Origin: Zanthoxylum bungeanum
Taxonomy: Eukaryota > Streptophyta > Magnoliopsida > Sapindales > Rutaceae
Length of the DNA: 64,000 bases
NCBI GenBank assembly: GCA_019454045.1
Contig: SKCR01023735.1
Span: 239,446-303,445 of the forward strand
Reading direction: 5' to 3'
The position numbers and the translations under genes were made by a program. The notes beneath the pieces are model-generated. The model worked only from the letters and a program-made list of their open reading frames with translations. It searched no databases and was not told the origin of the DNA. Position 1 is the first letter of the stretch. The number at the start of each line of letters is the position of its first letter. This document shows, in pieces, positions 1 through 45,100 of this stretch.

Positions 1-2354
1 GTTAAATCCATGGGCCCGTGGTACACTGTAGAAATTAGTTCTAAGTGTTATTAAGGGATTGCTAATAGAAACGTCAACGTGATTATATCTATAGAGATTT
101 GACGTTTACATCTATATCTCTGGAATGATTTGGATACCTATGACGGAGGGATTATACTTATGCAATGACCTCGGCCTGTATGGTTCAGAGAGTTTATCCG
201 TGTTCGTCATAATTTACGGGTGGGTGAATTATGGACACGAAATTTGATTTCGTGATGGATATGTCTGAATCTATAGATTCTCACTAGTGAAATGTACTCA
301 TAGAGCACTATGGAAACATTTATGAATAATACCGATTATTTATAAGTCGTTTTACGGTAAAACGAAAAATACATACGAATGGACCTAATGGTCATTTCCT
401 AATTAATGTGTATTTGTATTTAATATTTGATATTATTAAATACATATTAATTAATTGTCAAATTATGATATTGACACATATCATTAATATATGTATTTGA
501 GATATTTAATATAAATATAATACATATATTTAAGATATTTGTATTTAATTATTTAATTGTTAAATAATTAAATTAATTAAAAACTAAATATCTTATGCCA
601 TGATTATGATTAGGATATGGCATGATTCTATTGGTTCACTTGTAAATTTTACTTTATGATAAATGTTATCATTTGTAACAAGTAAACTAAAGCATTTTTC
701 ATTTAATATTTTGATACAAAAATTGGAAAAAAAAATATCATGATATTTCTGTCACAAGTTTCGGCCAAATGAGTGTATATACAAAAGTGTTTTGTTTTTT
801 CATTTGTTACACAATAGCAAGTTGCAAAATAAATTACAAAGTAAGGTTGAGAGAAAACAAGAAAAACAAATGAAATACATCAAGCAAATTCTTGATTTTT
901 GTAAGTAATTTCCAACTTTCTTCAACTAGGAAATTATATCCATGTATCTAGGCTTCAATTTGTGATGCTTAGAATTTTCTCTACTCTTTATGTATGTAAT
1001 TTAATTGGTTGTGAACTTGTTTGAAAGATGAGCATGTATGTTAATAAAGATTGAATGAAATTAGTTCATTAATACTCTTTTAGCCATTTAATGGTGATGT
1101 TGTCATTCTAGAGTTGCTTAGCCGCTCATAAATGACCTAGAATTGTTCTTTAGTTGTTTTATGGTGGTGAGACTTGTTTGGTGTGGTAAGGATTGGATTA
1201 AGAATTGAATTTGTTTAATTTGGTTTAATTTATCAATTTGTGGAAATTATAAAATTATGGTTCATAACCCTTTCTAAATTTGGGGCTTTTCATATATGTG
1301 ATGTAATTTGATGTATATATGATGTATGTTAAAGTTGGGATTGATTGGATTTGATCTTGACATGTTTTGAACTAAAAAGAACCAAATTGCAAATCTTGGA
1401 AAATCTGGGGTGCTCTCGGCAATTTCCAAAAATTGGGGATTTTTGTTAAAATTTGTATTTTCATGTATTGGACATGTATAAATCATTTTGGGATTGATTT
1501 GGAATCACTTAAATATGTATTTGACAATTTGAGGACAAAAATGATCAAACTGCAAAGTTAGGGGTCAATTCGGCAATTAAAGGAAATTTGATTTCTTAGG
1601 CTAAAACTTCAGATTTTATGTATTGGGTAATTAAATAAATAAGTTTATTTAATTGATCCAAGAAAAATTTTGAAATCGGAAAATTTTGATTTTCCTTGTT
1701 CCGCTGCGCTAACCATGTAATTCCCTATAAAACCCCAACATTGTTCCGTCTAATAGAGTCTCTTCCCATGAGAGTCGTTGACTTACTCTCGTCATATCAA
1801 CCTTCTAAAAGATTAAACTTCCAAGTATGGCATACGTCATATGCCTTAAAGCACAAAATATCCAGTGGTCTCAGCTCCGCTTCTCGGGTCGGCATACCGA
1901 GGTGAATGATATTTGGTCATACCTCCTCCAACTTCCTCAATCGGGTCGGGTCGGTAGCATATGCCACATCGGGCCGGCTTCCTCAGACATTCAAATGCTG
2001 CCAAAATTGACATTTTCTCTTCAGGTCTAGAGAACTCCTCCGCATAATGGGGTCGGGTCCTCTGTCTGACCTCAGCCTTTCTAGATCTTTGGACCCTCAT
2101 CATTCTCCTATCCAAGTACAAACCTCATCTTGACCCTCCTTGGTATTTGAATTTCCTCGGGGTGAAAAACCATTATCAATGCTTTCAAATAAGACCGGCT
2201 ATGAGTTTATATATCTTCTGCCGAGTGGGGCTGTATTTTTTTCAACTGGATAATTGAATCATCATGGAAATTTTTTCTATTTTCAATTCTACGGAGGCAT
2301 ATGATAGATAGATAGATAGAGAACAATGCACTAGTAGAAATTTTAGGTGGCATC
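1..2354. other. AT-rich flank, no gene recognised
   Basis: No convincing coding region or RNA gene is visible. The first ~1.7 kb is very AT-rich with homopolymer and TTTAAT-type runs. About 1735-2150 is less AT-rich with repeated CGGGTCGG-like words, which looks like a decayed LTR fragment, but I could not find its partner in the window. A short (GATA)n tract lies at 2303-2320. The segment ends at the ATAGG target duplication (2355-2359) of the Tat-type element. Confidence 0.4.
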
Positions 2355-2359
2355 ATAGG

Positions 2360-2416
2360 TGTTGATGGCTGATTTTTATCTCAGGGGCAATAAGGGAATA
2401 CCGCTCCCGAGATGGT
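2360..2416 (-). repeat. Tat element 3' LTR, distal 57-bp piece (cut off by Athila insertion)
   Basis: Matches the first 57 bp of the right LTR (19378 onward) with a few substitutions. Its last five bases ATGGT (2412-2416) are the left target duplication of the Athila element. The LTR resumes at 14805, after the second ATGGT (14800-14804). Confidence 0.9.
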
Positions 2417-3344
2417 TGACCGGTGCTTACACACGCGTATAACGCAAGCGCACGTATCGTTCAAGTAGTATAAAAAGTATCGATCCCACGAGGACTTAAT
2501 ACCTAATCTATTAATTTTATGAGGTCAAATGATTACTAGTATCTAACAGATTGATTGATTGATTGATTTGAAATAGTGAAGATTTTGAATTTAAAAACAA
2601 GAAAATAAAATTGCTTGAAAGTAGGTTTAAGAAAATTCATTATTAAAAAATATCTAGGGTTGTGAATCTTTCCAATATTATTTAAAGATGAAGTGGTTAT
2701 CTTATAGTCAGGTAAAATATTGATTTATTAACCTGGAACACTAAATTATGTAAAAGCCTCTTCCGATGGTCAACTACAAATATCCAGTATAACCCAATTG
2801 AACCATATGTCTATGTCAACCAAATTACATGGATTCATTAAGATTAAGTTCCAATTATGGCTACCTCCGCCCGACAGGTATATTCCTATCATGTAAGGAA
2901 ATCTATTAAAGGGTTATCTATCCTCAAGGAAGATCGTTGGCTATTGAGTCTAAGGTCTTAAACCTAAAATATCTATGCCTAGTTCATTTTAAGTTTACCT
3001 AATAAATTTTATTAGTGGCCAGTTATAAAAAGCATTAAGATTAAGACTCAATAAATAAATCTTTATATTACCCAAACTATAATCTAACCCCTTATAAACC
3101 GGTGACAATTGGAATTCATCGCAACCCTGGATAATTAATTTAGTTACAACACATAACTAGGGCTAGTAAAAATAAAAGACATAGAGTAAAAATGCCGAAA
3201 GTAAATGCGGTAACGTAGAAATTGAAAAGTATAATAAAATAAAATGAAATGCTAATGTAAAAGGAATTACTTTTACTATTTACTAATTTAGATATCTCCC
3301 ATAAAATAATATATAAACTTGTGATAATATTACCAACCAGCCAT

Positions 3345-3565
3345 ATAGGCGGTAACCTGATTAAGTCAAATTAAGTCCAACCAGCCATTAAGGCGGTAAT
3401 ATTTGTCCATAATCCAGCCATAAAGGCGGAACCAAAATAAACCAGCCATAAAGGCGGAACCAAAATTTAATTACCAACCGACTAATCTGGCGGTATCCTT
3501 GATTAGTCAGGTTTAAACCAGATTAAAATGAATTACCAACCGACCAATATGGCGGTATCCTTTTT
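3345..3565. repeat. Degenerate short tandem repeats inside the Athila 3' LTR
   Basis: The core CCAGCCATAAAGGCGG (variants CCGACCAATATGGCGG) recurs at least six times at irregular 30-60-bp spacing. The same array is present in the other LTR at about 13612-13840, so it predates the insertion. Confidence 0.8.
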
Positions 3566-3842
3566 AAGTCAAATTTTAAATAGTGAATATATTATTTTTA
3601 AGGGAGATTAATCTAAATAGCAATAGTAAAAGAATTACCTTTCACCTTAGCAGAGGGAAGTTACCTCCTCATGGTTGAATAGTAAAAACTGTAAAAATAA
3701 AGAAAGTAAATTACTATTATTACAGAACGTAATTAAAATTTAATTACAAAACTTAAATTAAAAGAAACTAGAGAGAAAACTCTCTATTTACATCAAAGAA
3801 ATGAGAGAGAATGGTACATCTAAAACTGAAATCTCGAGCTCA

Positions 3843-4118
3843 ATTTATAGACCCCGGTAGGCCTCCGCCTTTGGCGTCGCGACGCCAGCACATTTTGGTG
3901 TGGCATGCTGATGGCTTGACACGTGGCAATTCAGATAAGGAGATAAGGCGACACGTGGCGAGGCGGCTGAGAGCTCAATTATTACACCGTAGTATTGCGA
4001 CACGTGGCAAGGCGTGATTGGTTGATGATGATGTGGCGGTGACGTGGTGCATTGACTCGGTCAACTGTGATGTGGATGATGACGTGGCAGTGACGTGGAA
4101 TGACACGTGGCACACGTG
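3843..4118 (-). promoter_or_regulatory. Putative LTR promoter: G-box cluster plus TATA box
   Basis: Five CACGTG cores at 3920, 3952, 4001, 4104 and 4113, most within GACACGTGGC, plus further TGACGTGG words. In the direction of transcription (minus) they are followed ~70 bp later by CTATAAATTG (TATAAAT at 3843-3849). ACGT-core G-boxes are bound by plant bZIP and bHLH factors; the promoter role is inferred from this order within U3. Confidence 0.55.
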
Positions 4119-7315: not shown

Positions 7316-8283
7316 TTATGATGGATCTGAAAGTGTGACACTTTCTTTTTGTCGCTCAAATGATTCTCCCCAGTAGTGCTTGACACGCTGACTATTAACT
7401 TTGAATGTGTTGTTGGTGTTGGGATCCAGTAACTCAACAGCTCCATAATAAGGTAAAACCTGAGTGACCACAAAAGGACCTGACCACCTAGATTTCAATT
7501 TTCCAAGGAAAAGTTTCAACCTCGAGTTGTACAACAACACTTTCTGCCTTGGTTCCAACTGTTTGTGCATTATTTTTCGGTCATGTTCTTTGTCTTTTCT
7601 TTTATAATCTGGCATTCTCATAAGCCTGTAGACGCGAAATCCTCCAATTCGTTGAGTTGATGAAGTTGTTTCCCTCCTGCAGCTTGTGAATCAAGATTCA
7701 ACTTTTTCAGTGCCCAGTACGCCTTGTGTTCAAGCTCAACTGGCAGATGGCACGCTTTCCCAAACACAAATCGATATGGGGACATACCAATAGGTGTCTT
7801 ATAAGCTGTCTGGTAGGCCCATAATGCATCATCTAGTTTTGTAGACCAGTCCCTCCTTGTTGATCCAACAGTTCTCTCCAAGATTCTTTTGATTTCCCTG
7901 TTTGAAACTTCAACATGTCCATTTGACTGTGGATGGTAAGCAGTGGCAATTTTGTGAGTAACTCCGTATTTGGATAGGAGTGCATCGAAGTATCTGTTAC
8001 AGAAATGTGAGCCACCATCACTGATGATTTCACGAGGTGTTTCGAACCGAGTGAAAATATTCTTTTTCAGGAATTTGATCACCACTTTTGAATCATTGGA
8101 TGGCAATGCAATTGCTTCAACCCATTTGGAGACGTAGTCTACAACAACCATGATGTACAGGTTTCCGAATGATGGAACAAACGGTCCCATAAAATCAATA
8201 CCCCACACATCGAATATCTCCACTTCTGGAATGTTTTGCAATGGTCCTTCATTTATCCTCGAAATATTCCCATCCTCTGGCAC
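7316..8283 (-). pseudogene. Athila integrase core and C-terminal domain
   Basis: The core reads WGIDFMGPF (first Asp), ISDGGSHF (second Asp) and [14 protein letters not shown] (catalytic Glu), a complete D,D-E set, with AYHPQSNG before the Glu. The second part (7621-7316) contains RQKVLLYNSRLKLFLGKLKSRWSGPFVV, the SH3-like DNA-binding domain, in a frame shifted by one near 7620. The N-terminal zinc finger falls in 8284-8434 and is disrupted. It would insert the cDNA into the genome. Confidence 0.85.
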
Positions 8284-8434
8284 CTGTCACATTGAAGAGA
8301 AAAAGATAAGCATCTTTAAAAAGAATGGGCCAGAACAAACCTGATTATAGGACTTTGGCTGCAGTTTTGTTTCCGCTGAAGTGTCCGCCATATGGTGATA
8401 AATGACAGTGCTGCAAAACACTGTTGATTTCCTC

Positions 8435-36100: not shown

Positions 36101-39100
36101 GTAATTTTATGGATAATTTAGCCCCTTATCTATAAAGAATAAAATTACATTATTGAGGTTGTTTTTCAATATAATATAAAATGTATCCCGATATGAGAAT
36201 TGCTTATGAGTTTAGTGAAATTGCAGCCACCAAATTGACCTTTTCACTGAATCTTTTAAGTGATGACGGTCTCACATGATTTAGGGATGTTTCTATTTTT
36301 TGATGTACAGTCTTATGTCCAAATATGTGGATTGTATGTTAAATTTTAGAAATGTTACATATGAGACATATGGTTGGGAATGGACTAGTTAAGTGGTTTA
36401 TTCACCTAAATGTGGTAAACTTACAAGGATGGATACGTTTCTGAATCGTCTTATATGAAAAAATTGTAATTACATATTGTATATTCTGCCAAAGGTATTT
36501 ATACAGTGATGTGCTAAAATTCTTGGTATAATACTCTTTTAAGTGTTCTAAAAAGCGCTAGGCGCTAGACGGGCGGCGACCCAGCGCCTAGTGCCTAGAG
36601 CGCCTAGTGGGGGTGATACGCATCCATTTGTGAACACTCAATATTTTTGTAAGAGCTGAATATAAAGATGAAGGAAAACGAGCTGGCAATAAAAATTGAT
36701 TTGGATTTGCGTTGGAACTATTTCATATATGTTGACAGTGAAATATAACTAGCAAAATAAGAGTAATGGGTATTGAAGCAATTCAACAAACACCTTACAA
36801 AAACCAAGTGAATGGCACTCTAAAATTGACAAAAGAATCAGGCACAATGCCACCAGCCACTGCTGGTATGCCCACAATTCTCACTCAAAAAGAAAAATGA
36901 CAAATAACATGCCCCCCTAGAGAATCCTCACTCCCTTATATTCTTCTTTTCCAAGTCCTTCAAAGCCCACAAGCATTGTAACTGCCCTTCTCCACGTCAG
37001 CAGAACATGTGGAATCGCCTCTACAACCTTGCTCAACAATTCTTGTGGTCCCCTCATTGTGGATGTCAGCAAATTTCTCTGGCCCAAGCCCACTCTGCCC
37101 TCTCCCTACTGCAGCAGCCTTGACTTCTATAATTGGTACCTAACATTGCCCCCCTCCATAACAATGGACTTGTCCTCAAGTCCAAATTCTGAGTGTATTT
37201 TTTGTTGAGCCTGAATGGATTTTGGTCTCACTAAGACGTTGCGTTCTCCCTCCATTTTGTCAACCACCTTAGCTGACACAGGCTTTGTTACCCCACCCTT
37301 CCTTGCATCAGTAGCAATTTCAGCAAGGTAATTATCCACCAATGTTGCGACTTTAAGCATAACAAATGCATCATCAAGATCATCTTCACTATCTTTTTGT
37401 TGTGCAAAGTTTACCAATATTCTGTGAAATGTGTCGACCTCAAACAAGGTGTCACATTTGGTTTGCCTGTACCTATGAAGTCTCCATGAGATGTTATACT
37501 CCAGGTGTGAGAAACTTAAAGCAATTTGCTTTGCACAACCTTTTAAGGCTATTGTATCTATGCTACGAGAAACTATTTTTAGCTCGTCAGCAAGAGGGGA
37601 TAGGTTCCCACATTGTTTCAACACATATTTCAAGGTTCTTGCAAACAAAACACTTAAGATATTCTTCAGCTCGAGGGCCAAAATTATCTTGTGAAAAATC
37701 TTCAGACATTTCAAGATAATTGGAGGCACAACATAGCAGAGCCACATTTGCTGATGTAATTTCAAAGTGAATTCCATAACTGAACTTGGTTGTGTCTGCG
37801 TGAATCCAACAATCTCCAAGCAGAGCTCCCCAAAGTGCATCATTTGGTTTCATTGGCATTCCTTTGACCAAATCATAAGCCTCTTTAATTCTTCCAACAC
37901 CCCAGAAGATCAACCAAGCACCCATAATGCTTAATTCCTGGTGCCAACCCATACTTCTCCATCTTTGAGAAAACTTCCAAGCCTTCATCAACAAACCCCC
38001 ATGTGCACAAGCAGAAAGAACAGACAAAAATGCGATCTTGTCTGACATCTCATTTGATATCTCCACTCTACTAAAAAACTCAAAAGCCTCTTTGGCTCTT
38101 TGCATTGTCCCTGTATAGCAAAAACTGAGATCAGAGAGTTCCAACACACACGGTTCCTATGAGCCATTCCTTCAAAAACCGACACTGCATTTTTTAAATC
38201 CCCACATGTCACATACATTCCAACCAATACACTCAGAACCCTCGGATCATGCTTTTTCCTCTTTTTCTCAATCAAATTGTGTATTTCTCTACCAGTATTC
38301 CACAACCCCAAGTGTGCACATGATGATAAAACACTTGCAAGAGAAACTTCATCCGGCTCAAACCTCTCACCTTGCGTTTTCCGAAAAACTCCCAATGCCT
38401 CCTCATAGAACCCATTTTGCGCTAGCCCAGAAATTATTGAATTCCAATTCCCTAAATTCCTAATCGGAATTTGATCAACTATAGCTTTAGCTTCCTCTAC
38501 GTCATCTCTCTTAAAATACCTTGAAATCATCGATGTCCACACCAAATAATTCCCTTGTGGCATCACCTCAAAAAGTTCTCTAGCAACCTCCATCTCTCCA
38601 TTGCTCGCATACCCATCAATCATCTCTATCCATTTAACCGCATACCTCCCAGGCATTTCATCAAACACTTTACTTGTAGCAAATATATCACTACATTTAG
38701 CATACATGTTTATCAATGAAGTTCCCATCATTACTTTAGTATCTGTACCAAACTTGATAGCCTCATCAAATTGCTCTCCAATCAAGGCCATCATTGTTTC
38801 AAGCCACATGGTGTCAAGGTTAGACTTACGGTTGCTGGTGTTAGACCACTTCCCTCCGCTCGCACACTTAGGATCTACCCACTTGGATTCAATTTCCGCT
38901 TGGAACAAATGGTAATCTGCATTCATAGGCATCTGGCTGGGCTTGAATATATGTTCGTACAAACACCTAAATTCTTCAACAGTATCGAAAATGTAGATGT
39001 TAAGCATAGAGGAGCTCCATGCAGCATCCTGTTTGGGCTTTGATATGTCGTCAAACCAAAACGTCCAATTCCTCTCAAGTTTGTGCGGCTGTGCTTGTGG

Positions 39101-42100
39101 TTGCGGCTCTGGCAGCGCCACCGCCGCTGTCGTTCCCTCACTTGTCTTTCTTGTTGCCGTTTTTTGGCCCATTCGATTTCTGTCCAGTCCCTAGACCATT
39201 GGTCATGGTTGGAACTCCAACTGTTTGGCCAGTCACTTGCCACGATCGTATCCACCCTGATGATCTCACCTCTCTTTGCCAAGAGATTTTCTTAGTGTTC
39301 CCACTCACTACTTTTTCCTCAATGTTAACTTCCTCCGTCCAATTTTTCTCTAGGCCATCCATTATGGCCCACTCAAGTTGGCTCCTCACTGGTTTAGAGG
39401 AAAGACACACCCTCTGGTTTTCTGCAGGTGGTACTTCATAATCTGGCTTTTCTTCCTTCAGCCCTTTAACCATATATTGACAAAATTCATCCATCACTTC
39501 AAACTCTTGGGTTAAGTTCCCCATCGCCTCAATTTTTTTTTGACTTCTTTTATACCTCCATCTATTGTTTGTAAACAAGAAGACAAATGTTCTACATCCA
39601 TTTTGTTGTCTGCTTCGTCTTCCATTTTGTTGTTGGGCTCTGATTGGTTCCTCATCGATTCAGGGGGAAAACGTGACCTCTGAGTTGCTGTAGGGGGTGC
39701 TTCATATTCCAGATTTTTCTCCTTTATCCATTCTCTTATATACTTATGAAGTTCGCCTACCCCTTCCTATTTGTGGTTCAACTTCTCAATAGCTCCCACC
39801 TGTTTTTCCTCCAAACTCTTCCACTCCTCCACCCATAGTGCCTGATCCATCGCCTCATCTAAATAATCCACAACTGCTAAGTTCATTCCCACTATTACCT
39901 TTAGTTGAAGGCCATTCAAAAAAAACATTAATGTAAAAATCTTCAGTCGCAGGTGGTGCCCCCCTTAAACGGCATTCGCGAACTGATCCTTCCTGTTTCA
40001 GAGATAAAAGTGTTGAAAAATCATCCCTATACATTTTCCCACGTTCAGATCCGACAGGTCAGACCAATTGATACGCATCCATTTGTGAACACTCAATATT
40101 TTTGTAAGAGTTGAATATAAAGATGAAGGAAAACGAGCTGGCAATAAAAATTGATTTGGATTTGCGTTGGAACTATTTCATATATGTTGACAGTGAAATA
40201 TAACTAGCAAAATAAGAGTAATTGGTATTGAAGCAACTCAACAAACACCTTACAAACCAAGTGAATGACAATCTAAAATTGACAAAAGAATCAAGCACAA
40301 TGCCACCAGCCACTGCTGGTATGCCCACAATTCTCACTCAAAAAGCAAAATGACAAATAACATGCCCCCCCAAGAATCCTCACTCCCTTATATTCTTTTT
40401 TTCCAAGTCCTTCACAGCCCACAAGCATTGTAACTGCCCTTCTCCACGTCAGCACAACATGTGGAATCGCCTCTGCAACCTTGCTCACCAATTCTTGTGG
40501 TCCCCTCATTGTGGATGTCAGCAAATTTCTCTGGCCCAAGCCCACTCTGCCCTCTCCCTGCTGCAGCTGCCTTGACTCCCATAATTGGTACCTAACAATG
40601 GGCCTAGGCAGTTAATCGGAAATTGAGAAAATCTATAATTAGGTTTAAGATTTAGTATGATTTGGAGAAATTAATCATAGAAAAATGTTATTTGAGTAAT
40701 GAGTAATATTTATAAATGGTCAATTTGACGAGAAACTAACAAAAATTGAAAAAAAATTAGAGTTTTTTTATATTAGAGTTTATGCTCTAAATTGGGATTT
40801 TTTTCAAAATGATAAGTTAGAGAGTTAATTTTGTAAAATTAAGGTTAGGGTTAGGATTGGGATGTGAAATTCGACCGGAAAAACAATTAATTTCGAATTT
40901 TGCGTCAGTGAACGGTCCCACCGTTGACTGACGAATTTGCCGGCGAAAATTTGTCTGAATGGGCAGAAAACGCCGCCCATTCCGATGAGCACCTGGCCCC
41001 AATGATTTGGGGCCAGGCGCGACGGCCATAGGCCGCCGAACCTATACACGCCGCCTAGGCGGCGAGTTTTAGAACACTCTCTTTTATGACTTTGAGTATT
41101 ATTTATTATCTTGTGTTCTGCTTAAACTAAAGAATTGCATTGTTATTTGTTTTTCAGTTTTGTGACTATAGAGATGTTAACTGACTCCAACTTTAAAGTG
41201 TAGAACAGAGATGTGCAGTTGGCTATGAAATTAGCAGATATTGATCTTGCTATGACTACTCCTAAGCCAGCTAATATTAATAGTTCCAGTACTGATACGG
41301 ATAAGCAGCTGCATAAAGTATGGCATAAGTCAAATCGCATGTGCTATTTGACTATAAAGAGATCCATTCCTGAGCATTTGCTAAGTGGTCTTCCAGAAAC
41401 CACTATAACAAAAGATTTCCTAACAGTTGTATTTGAAAGATACAAAGTCTCAATCAATGCAGAAATTGGTACCCTTCTGAAGCAATTATACTCAATGAAG
41501 ATAATGGTAATGGAGGTGCTAGGAAGTATATTTTGATGATGGTCCATATTCAAAACAAGTTGAAAAATCTTAACATTGATCTTCCTGATGCTTGAATTGT
41601 CCATCAAGCATTGAATATTCTGCCTCCAGAGTTTGGTACAATTGTAACTACTTACAATTCGAGGGAAGAACCTTGGAATGTTAATGATTTCATTGTCATA
41701 TGTGTTGCTGAGGAAGAGAAACTCAAGGCAGGGCATATAGATGCAGCTCTCCTTGTTTCTAAACCTCGCAAGAAAGGTAAGAAATCTAAATTTTCAGCTT
41801 TTGGTAATGTTCAGAATTACAATAAAACTGGTCAGACAAGTGCTGTGGGTGGTACTAAAGGTGTCTTCAAGAAAGAACTTAAATGTTTCTTTTGTAAAAA
41901 GAAAGGGCATAAGTCAGTGTTCCAAATATAAAGTTTGGTTAGAGAAACATGAGCGTGCAGGTAACTCCTTGGTTTTTATTGTATGTGAATCCAATTTTGT
42001 TAATGCCACATCCAGTTCTTGGTGGCTTGATAGTGGAGCAACTAATCACGTTGCTTTCACATTGCAGGGATTCATAAACAAGAGGAAACTAAACAAGGAT

Positions 42101-45100
42101 GAGTTTAAGCTCGTAGTTGGCAATAATGAATTGGTGGATGAACATTATGTTGGAGATGTTTGTTTAAAACGATACTCCAATTATGAACTTGTTTTGACAA
42201 GTGTTTTGTATGTACCATCTTTTAGACGAAACTTGATATCAGTATATGTACTCGACAAACAAGGTTATGGTTTTGAGTTTAATACAGGTTTTGTATCTGT
42301 ATATTTTAACTCGAACAAAGTTGGCCATTATGTTTTGTCATATGGATGGTACAATCTCTGCTTGGCATCAAGTCAAGTCTATTCCAATTCATATGATGTT
42401 GAACAAGTTGCCAAAAGACCCTTAATAAAGGAAAAGTCATCATGTTGTGGCATAAGAGACTTGGCCACATTTCTAGGGAAATAGTAGAAAGGTTAATAAA
42501 GTATGATATTCTACCTACTCTTGACTTTAGCGACCTAGAAACATGTGTTGATTGTTGTAAGGGTAAACTAACCAAAATAAAGAAAAATAAATCCACTCGT
42601 AGCTCCGATCTTTTATAAATTACTCATACAGACATAAGTGGACCTTATTCACCCATAATTTACAATAACAAGTATTATATAACATTCATTGATGATTTTT
42701 CATGATATGGATATTTGTACTTGATTAAGGAAAAGTCTGAAGCCCTTGATAAATTCAAGATCTTCAAGACTGAAGTTGAGAAACAACTGGGAAAAATTAT
42801 CAAGATTGTTAGGTCTGACCGGGGTGGTGAGTATTATGGTAAACATGAGGTCAGTGGACAAATAAAGGGACCATTTGCCATATACTTAGAAGATTGTGGA
42901 ATAGTAAGTCAATTTACTATGCTAGGTAGTCCTGAACAGAATGGTGTGGCCGAAAGGCGATATCTTCCAGACTTCCTTTGGGGTGAGGCAATTAAAACAG
43001 CCTTATACATCCTCAATAGAGTTCCAAGTAAGTCTGTTTCTAGAACTCCTTTTGAAATATGGACTGGTAGGAAACCTAGCATGAGTCACCTCCGTGTTTG
43101 GGGATGTCCTTTGTTAGGGACCAGAAGTTCCAAGATGGGCCAGAGAGAGCAAGCAAGCCCAGCAATAGGAATCAAGAGGAGACAACCCAATCATTATGGA
43201 GGCCACTTGTATATCAAGTTTATGAAAGAAAGAAGAAGGGCATAAGTGTGGAGATAAAAAGGGGACCAAGCACGAATGAAGAAGGGAAATGGGCTGCTGA
43301 CGTGGGAAATTAGTTAGAATGGGAATGATTACTGGAGCCGTATATAGGCAGGTTGTGGGTGTGTGTGTGGAGGGGAGGAAGAGAAAAAGATACTGTTGGA
43401 TTTGTTTTGGGAAATCTCAGCTGGAGAAATGCTCCCTGCTTGAGGATTATTTTCTTGTTTTCTTTACTTTTCTTGCTGAATTTGTAATGAAACTCAAGGA
43501 TACTTGAGAAATACTTTGTTATTACTACCCTATTTCAATTAATTACAAACTTATCAGTTCTATTTCTTGATTCCATCAAACGAAAAATTGCAATGTTTTA
43601 TCAAATGGTCCGACCTGCCGGATTCGACTAAGGGGAGCACGAAAATGACAAGAATGGAAACGAGAGTAGACTTTGGAACGAAACTCGGTGCGAGTGGAGG
43701 AAGAAGTGAGAGGCCTAAGATCGGATGTAGAGCAGCTAAACATCGGCTTACAAACGATAAAGAATGACATGGAGGGATTGAAAACACACCTAAAGGAGGT
43801 GGGGAGCTTAAACCAAAAACTTGAGGTGTTGGAAGAAGTCTGAGGTTCATGTTACAGTGGATGAAAGGAAGGGGACCTGTGCAGGGTGAAGGGTCGTCAG
43901 GAGCGGGAGAGCGGATGGATACCACCCACATTGCTTTTAACCAACCAGCAGAGTTTCCAACTGACCATGTTGAAAGGACTAGTGAAGTTGACGACAAAAC
44001 GGACGATAAAGAGCAAGCAAGAAAAATGATGTTGAAACGGGTTGAGTTTCCTTTCTTTGATGGTACTGATCCAGTGGGATGGGTGACTCGAGCTGAGTAA
44101 TTTTTTGAGATCCATCGAACCAGAACAGACATGAAGATTTCTCTGGCAATGGTTAGTATGGAGGGAAACACCATTCATTGGTTTCGTTGGTTGAGGAAGA
44201 AAATACCCATTCTAACTTGGGATATCCTCACCACTGAAATTTTTAAGAGATATTCTGATAAGAATAGTGCGAATCCCTTTGAATTTCTGGCCGCACTGAG
44301 ACAAGAGGGGACCAGGGAGGATTATATTGAGCGTTTCGAGAGGTTAGCTTCACAGGTTACTGATTTGCCGGAAGAACAATATTTGGGATATTTTTTAAAT
44401 GGGTTGGGGGAGAATATAAGAAGATTAAGAATCTTTGAGCCCAGAGACGTGATGAGAGCTATGGAACTAGCCAGAATGTTGGAGGAAGAGGTTGCAGGGG
44501 AATGGGGAAACTAGCGAGTAACTGGCATGAAAGGGATGAACCCCTTAGGTTGGAGACGATCCATTCCCACTTTGGGCCAGGCCCAAAGTTTTGGAGCTTC
44601 AGTTAGAACAAATGGGCTGGGAATCGGGCCAAGATCGATTGGGTCGGGTTCTGGAGTATTTGGAGGAGGACCTGAGAGAGCTAGTGTCTCTATCAACACA
44701 CAGTACCCACGCACGGGAGCAAATGCAAACCCTAACCCACCGGCGACCGCTGGGAACTTCAAATCAAGCTCTAATGGAGGTTCCATGAGGGGATCCACCG
44801 CCAGCAACGCACGAGGAGGGCGAAATCTTTCATATCAAGAATATGTGGAGAGGCGAGAGAATGGCTTATGTTTTCGATGTGATCAACCTTATTCACCCCT
44901 ACATAAATGCGTAGGAAAAACATTGAGGGTGATGATAATGGGGGAAGATGAGATAAACGAACAGGAGTCTGATCAGAGAAACTGCTACTGAGATGCACGA
45001 GCAAGAGGAAGATCAAGAACCGACTCGTAATGAAGAAGAGCTAGAGTTGCCTATGTACTCGATAGGGGGCATCACCCGACCCCGGACTATGAAATTACTA

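Follow-up and report, generated by a model that had tools for sequence, protein, structure and literature searches.

The non-autonomous long terminal repeat (LTR) elements TR-GAG and LARD have LTRs, a primer-binding site and a polypurine tract, and no pol. In maize, the LTR retroelement Bs1 has taken up segments of three host genes, and Veju and BARE are cases of abnormal template switching, according to the accessible part of one account (PMC13317346). The accessible parts of two further papers report that full-length LTR elements contain 672 host genes in rice and 1,343 in sorghum (Jiang and Ramachandran 2013, PMC3726574) and attribute mosaic elements of the Triticeae to jumping between RNAs packaged together (Sabot and Schulman 2007, PMC1950507). 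How often retroelements make plant gene fusions is known mostly from single cases and catalogues. Here we describe an LTR element, designated W, in a 64,000-nucleotide stretch of Zanthoxylum bungeanum DNA (assembly GCA_019454045.1, contig SKCR01023735.1, positions 239,446 to 303,445; hereafter the window), and its sister elements in the same genome.

W is a pol-less, minus-strand LTR element of 3,984 bp that spans window positions 36614-40597 (numbered el 1-3984 along the element, where a window position equals 40598 minus el). Fragments of three unrelated host genes, eIF(iso)4E, PPR and NPH3, lie in it head to tail and in its sense direction, confirming a sequence-only reading of the window. 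Pfam recognises IF4E (5.2e-32) and PPR (2.5e-31) in a 399-codon frame and NPH3 (3.3e-8) in a 240-codon frame, scores that place the gene matches far above chance level, and a PDB sequence search with the W frame matched eIF4E and PPR chains. We propose, with a probability of roughly 0.8, that the body of W consists of coding fragments joined by reverse transcriptase jumps between co-packaged element and host mRNAs at short shared words.

Parent-like genes for all three fragments are present in the genome of W (3.96 Gb, 51,709 contigs), from which all loci (L numbers) and contigs (C numbers) given below come. The eIF(iso)4E fragment (38760-39170, minus strand) begins near the start codon in exon 1, includes exon 2 and ends after 35 nt of exon 3. 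The best-matching genes lie on C37286 and C31847; C44029 and C25255 have more distant ones. The gene aligns to W in three pieces (el 1437-1634, 1634-1803 and 1804-1838). In C37286, GT...AG introns lie exactly between these pieces; W is continuous there, with exon joints at 38964/38963 and 38795/38794 and two introns missing. Parental introns, which the sequence-only reading had wanted looked for, are therefore absent from the eIF piece. Their loss at the exact splice sites identifies a spliced RNA as the source, and the piece was likely copied from a messenger RNA.

The PPR fragment (37791-38759, minus strand; Pfam and genome matches) is At3g21470-like: where the listed homologues of the PPR-bearing frame of W are given a specific name, it is mostly this one. 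Its parent-like gene, on C34827 (L010), has a 555-codon frame. The NPH3 fragment (37303-37787, minus strand; Pfam and genome matches) has a 417-nt internal deletion compared with the gene. Parent-like NPH3 genes lie on C38829 and six other contigs (four of them L025-L028), and the two that were read, L025 and L026, have a 396-codon frame over the captured part.

The fragments might instead have entered as DNA, through nested insertions, double-strand-break repair or ectopic recombination between two LTRs. For the eIF piece this is refuted by the loss of introns exactly at both splice sites. For the other two it could draw on genes that are single-exon in the captured part and on almost no homology at the PPR/NPH3 joint, and microhomology such as that at the eIF/PPR joint is typical of end joining too. 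It has to face, however, the common sense direction of all three pieces, the same pattern in several sister lineages and the cargo of one sister, L076. Specifically, the JAB cargo (read as RPN11) of L076 runs on where the gene copies are split by three gaps: on nine gene contigs (C49872, C19566 and C19189 among them) the match falls into pieces, four on eight contigs and three on one (splice sites there not read), and the JAB piece appears to be intron-free in the element. We regard entry as DNA as improbable.

The eIF/PPR joint lies at 38760-38765 (minus strand), within 2 bp of the 38758/38759 proposed earlier, and inside one open frame as proposed. Alignment of element and parents gives TTTGATGAGGCA in the eIF gene, CATGCTGAGGCT in the PPR gene and TTTGATGAGGCT in the element, all with TGAGGC. 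The chance of a shared word at a random joint is 1.3e-3 for at least 6 nt and 0.16 for at least 2 nt. Template switching, as the presumed joining step, fits the 6-nt word. The PPR/NPH3 joint, placed by alignment to the genes at 37787-37791 (minus strand), is about 20 bp from the earlier estimate near 37809, and shares about 2 nt (CA). Both joints are in frame, in agreement with the earlier claim.

The open frame around the first joint, 400 codons from stop to stop (37988-39190, minus strand), spans eIF and most of PPR. The whole chimera occupies three overlapping frames rather than one (el 1408-2607, 2442-3008 and 2749-3468). The gag-side frame is lost just upstream of eIF, and W encodes no single gag-to-NPH3 protein. 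An end-to-end open frame is absent from every full-chimera copy read.

Such copies were found on four further contigs (C31139, C40702, C37760 and C326). The 3' flank is common to all four (150 bp compared, few substitutions), and identity over the loci compared is 98.0-99.8%; they are therefore counted as one insertion, Y, so that the full chimera represents two insertions, W and Y, not five. The same two joints occur at W and on the four contigs of Y and are therefore not assembly breaks, a concern raised by the sequence-only reading; an assembly artefact was rejected as their source.

Joints that are in frame and common to W and Y would also be expected if a chimeric host gene had arisen first, for example by retroposition, and one of its mRNAs had been captured in a single step. 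The divergence of the pieces from their separate parents speaks against a single step. Synonymous divergence (dS) from W to the parents is 0.396 for eIF, 0.141 for PPR and 0.134 for NPH3; the difference is significant between eIF and PPR (24/78 versus 25/197 synonymous sites, Fisher P 8e-4) and between eIF and NPH3 (P 4e-3). The eIF value could be inflated if the true parent is a lost or unassembled paralogue. Sisters also hold the parts in other company. L018 and L021 (C51431 and C7809) carry a second PPR piece, PPR-A, followed by PPR and NPH3, without eIF. L014 carries the start of eIF without the joint of W, joined at another point to other sequence, together with 98 bp that come from the same PPR gene but lie upstream of the part found in W. 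The eIF-PPR frame has 384 protein matches; of the 120 that were listed, none has an IF4E domain and none covers more than 64% of the frame. A ready-made host fusion is thus, in our estimate, slightly less probable still than entry as DNA.

W is mosaic, with parts from several sister lineages, and does not reflect one linear series of captures. The earlier proposal of serial capture is supported, since neither of the two observations named as refuting it was made, and it is refined as regards the history of the element. In 100-bp bins, W is 93-97% identical to L058 in the 5' LTR and 94-97% in the 3' LTR. The gag remnant is 85-94% identical to L058 (match ending at el 872), 91-94% to L060 and 84-92% to L062 (both ending at el 989). 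From el 999 to about el 3000, W is 86-97% identical to Y, and less beyond. L058, L060 and L062 resume matching W only at about el 3406-3414, ahead of the 3' LTR. The nearest relative switches sharply, within about 10 bp (el 989/999), next to a start of the body that is common to W and Y, has no Pfam match and looks coil-like by eye (39173-39599, minus strand). The LTR of Y is 86-92% identical to that of W over the first 316 bases and then unlike it. The 417-nt NPH3 deletion is at the same place, within a few bases, in W and L018, and is not present in Y. Since W shares the deletion with L018 and eIF with Y, no simple tree fits all parts.

In L018 and L067, the same PPR piece starts at the same TGAGGCT as in W, but behind PPR-A; at that point PPR-A reads TAATGAGGCT in L065 and L066. 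With one start behind two different partners, either one of the two joints probably gave rise to the other or jumps recur at this word, and the eIF/PPR joint may be a switch between elements rather than a fresh host capture. L018 (1331-3499, minus strand) stays open for at least 723 codons, starting at the end of the stretch read, crossing both PPR pieces and NPH3 and reaching the polypurine-tract end. L018 and L021 are 98% alike over 2.6 kb (the outer 0.9 kb is not alignable), yet differ in their open frame, so single-base frame breaks are not trusted. Two further rearrangements were seen in PPR copies. In L067 (minus strand), a 120-bp PPR piece lies inside PPR-A with PPR-A sequence repeated on both flanks, as if the copy had jumped out and back; on C768, about 7.3 kb separate the two parts of a PPR copy (L059:518-833 and 8149-8363), the break lying at about el 2270-2281.

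The sisters form a family with a broad cargo. An LTR search of the genome gave at least 40 matches (40 of 51 candidates scored), and a gag-piece search at least 150, many of them distant (150 of 1,030 scored). The polypurine-tract pattern, with up to 2 mismatches, occurs at 36 places genome-wide (13 exact), and its reversed control at none. At least five further cargo combinations are found among the sisters L018, L058, L062, L067 and L076. L058 carries HSP70 and a different PPR. L060-L063 carry WDR70, identified via the protein matches of L062, with WD40 models below cut-off; Pfam finds HSP70 and Pyr_redox_dim (read as dihydrolipoyl dehydrogenase) in L062, and DnaJ weakly. In L064-L067, PPR-A is accompanied by pieces of HSP70 and Pyr_redox_dim (from Pfam on L066 and L067), and a WDR70-like stretch was seen by eye in L064, L066 and L067, not in L065. 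By eye, L014 also has ribosomal P0, WDR70 and lipoamide dehydrogenase pieces. JAB is the cargo of L071 as well as L076. L079 has kinase and RRM pieces below cut-off, and no named cargo was recognised in L020. L060 and L061 (98% alike end to end) are probably one insertion, as are L071-L074 (at least 99.5% over whole stretches); L076 is separate from the latter (95.6%, part only).

Besides that of L018, long frames are found in L067 (814 codons) and L066 (630 codons), and the search table gives 991 codons for C18134 (617 of them read in L076) and, from the table alone, 1,002 for C24543 and 1,024 for C23067. The predicted fused proteins of L067 and L062 have, respectively, 4 matches in public protein data, covering 20-27%, and 153 (120 listed), covering at most 46%; at this coverage, none of those listed spans a fusion. 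Retrotrans_gag scores 22.2-23.8 bits in L058, L020 and L079 and 16-17 bits in L062 and L066, all below the cut-off of 24.1. The family likely works as a natural gene shuffler. It is possible, and we say so tentatively, that it is a dedicated gene-shuffling pol-less family, which keeps the gag start, the primer-binding site and a pol stub, fills the space between with in-frame exons of changing host mRNAs swapped at recurrent jump points, and, as part of its normal life cycle, makes fusion proteins that reach about 1,000 residues.

Two elements were considered as autonomous partners. L080 is a gag-pol element with reverse transcriptase, integrase and chromodomain (Chromo 5.5e-8) and a similar primer-binding site; having only 54 bp and that site in common with W, it was rejected as direct partner and left as a distant relative. 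An integrase with chromodomain is absent from W, which, without this domain in cis, is filed not as a Ty3/gypsy chromovirus but as related to one. C50243 (L058) was rejected because it is a gene-carrying member with a nested antisense Copia-type element. This insertion (L058:2394-7795, recognised by eye) has 351-bp LTRs that are 99.4% identical and lies antisense within the HSP70-PPR member.

From these comparisons we propose the following course. Host mRNA would have been packaged with element RNA in particles made in trans, and reverse transcriptase, switching templates at short shared words, would have joined the fragments. A chromovirus with similar primer-binding site and polypurine tract may mobilise the element. 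The dS values suggest eIF as the first capture (0.40), with PPR and NPH3 later (0.14 and 0.13). The eIF part may have been brought together with PPR-NPH3 by a switch from one element to another at T(A/G)ATGAGGCT, where L018 also has PPR joined to another PPR. The cargo would thereafter have drifted as a passenger.

LTR divergence (Kimura two-parameter distance) is 0.033 in W, 0.039 in L058 and L060, 0.014 in L062, 0.016 in L063, 0.013 in L066 and 0.005 in L067. At assumed rates of 1.3e-8 to 7e-9, W inserted 1.3-2.4 My ago and L067 0.2-0.35 My ago. The ratio of nonsynonymous to synonymous divergence (dN/dS, omega) differs between gag and cargo. The gag part of L062 has omega 0.31-0.40 against L060, L061 and L058 (P <=1.1e-3). 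The WDR70 start of L062 has 0.32 against L060 (P 2e-3) and 0.34 against L063 (P 0.11), and the remaining cargo of L060, L062 and L063 has 0.79-0.99. In the L067 group, omega is 0.54-0.65 for the non-cargo half, but 0.98 for L067 versus L018, and 0.59-0.77 for the cargo half (P 0.016 to 0.20). The PPR rows of L018 and L021 are unreliable, their deletion not being aligned as a deletion. When W is compared with Y, three Y contigs give eIF omega values of 0.59, 0.66 and 0.45 (P 0.17, 0.23 and 0.03, uncorrected for multiple tests), and two Y contigs give 0.62-0.63 for PPR (P 0.06) and 0.85-0.88 for NPH3 (P ~0.4). These values indicate that gag is constrained and most cargo weakly or not at all.

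An omega below 1 in all three parts between W and Y, the single low eIF P value, the 400-codon frame kept in W and the long frame of L018 are what a working protein under selection, in host or element, would lead one to expect. Of the readings weighed here we hold this the least probable. The other W-Y comparisons have P 0.06 to 0.42, the eIF piece reaches no further than 35 nt into its third exon, an in-frame stop interrupts Y, and frame breaks occur in W. Moreover, the W of the EEFW motif of the gene, which we take to be an eIF4G contact, is R, and the E of KWED, presumably a cap contact, is V. Both residues are found in the window element and on C37760 and C31139 of Y; C40702 has R at the EEFW position and then a frame shift ahead of the KWED position. 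A working cap-binding eIF(iso)4E from W is, judging by these residues, unlikely. We infer that the cargo is passenger sequence drifting close to neutrally, carried since jumps are tolerated.

The remaining parts of W are those of an LTR element. Its LTRs, located by repeat search and their ends, measure 529 bp (5', 40069-40597, minus strand) and 532 bp (3', 36614-37145, minus strand), form a direct repeat with TG...CA ends and are 96% alike. The gag remnant (capsid part; 39609-40065, minus strand) is near L058, L060 and L062 (84-94% in 100-bp bins), and no gag Pfam match was found in the frames of W itself. The primer-binding site (40047-40066, minus strand) resembles those of the sisters and of L080. 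It may be that of tRNA-Tyr; in a tRNA check, L086, the one locus examined of 31 matches, had no tRNA by ARAGORN and resembled the primer-binding site of another retroelement. A pol 3' remnant and the polypurine tract (GGAGGGGGG) occupy 37146-37189 (minus strand). The pol content is limited to a 54-bp pol-end match (el 3409-3462, 85% to L080), which bears out the earlier description of an LTR element lacking pol.

W is nested in a multi-copy repeat with ends resembling terminal inverted repeats (TIRs; GTGTTCTAAAA...), at window positions 36542-41080. Its joined flanks match at least 40 uninterrupted copies of this repeat (40 scored of 2,123 candidates). Five copies were fetched, with CGGGG (four) or TGGGG (one) where W has GGGGG on its 3' side (36609-36613) and a decayed ATGGG on its 5' side (40598-40602), probably a worn 5-bp target-site duplicate. 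Exact 5-bp duplicates flank L058, L060 and L063, and 4 of 5 bases agree in L062. Capture by a Pack-type (TIR) element or a Helitron was rejected, because the element is LTR-bounded, the eIF introns are absent and the TIR-like repeat is the insertion target; no search aimed at Helitron ends was made. Just right of the nested repeat, Copia-type gag-pol frames were recognised by eye from translations (41204-42484, plus strand).

Several observations weigh against the proposed origin of W by template switching. The PPR and NPH3 genes are single exons across the captured parts, so that a DNA route is conceivable for these two; capture through RNA, as claimed earlier, is shown for the eIF piece only. 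The PPR/NPH3 joint shares only about 2 nt, as expected at 16% of random joints. Three of ten bases of the putative target-site duplicate differ from the empty-site word. The gag frame of W is broken, which makes W dependent on help in trans, and no close autonomous partner was found in the genome. Lastly, some cargo departs from neutrality, namely eIF in one of three comparisons (P 0.03) and the WDR70 start of L062 versus L060 (omega 0.32, P 2e-3).

Since parent-like genes, joints, missing introns, sisters and cargo swaps are all present in one genome, the steps of capture (which mRNAs, which words and in which order) can be read and tested here, and one can measure how likely such fusions are to turn into host genes. 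A description of this gene-carrying family was not found in the open-access literature. W and its sisters are like the TR-GAG and LARD elements in having LTRs, a primer-binding site and a polypurine tract, no pol and, in the sisters, a gag-type frame; they differ in that host coding fragments fill the internal region and the gag of W is broken.

In the Triticeae complexes, mosaics likewise come from jumps between co-packaged RNAs, but the accessible part of that study describes two retroelements joined, whereas here host exons are joined too (PMC1950507). The rice and sorghum set is a catalogue, and its accessible text describes no single pol-less family with serially exchanged cargo (PMC3726574). 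The closest precedent is Bs1, rather than the Pack-type elements to which the sequence-only reading had likened W. Like W, Bs1 as described in the accessible text has several unrelated host coding pieces in one LTR element and a hybrid frame (PMC13317346). The genes and the host differ, and Bs1 is described there as one element, whereas sisters with at least five further cargo combinations exchange pieces here. Taken alone, W adds one more example to the Bs1 kind. What sets the family apart is its broad cargo and the reshuffling between elements; compared with Bs1, it is unusual for one family to have many cargo sets and to exchange them.

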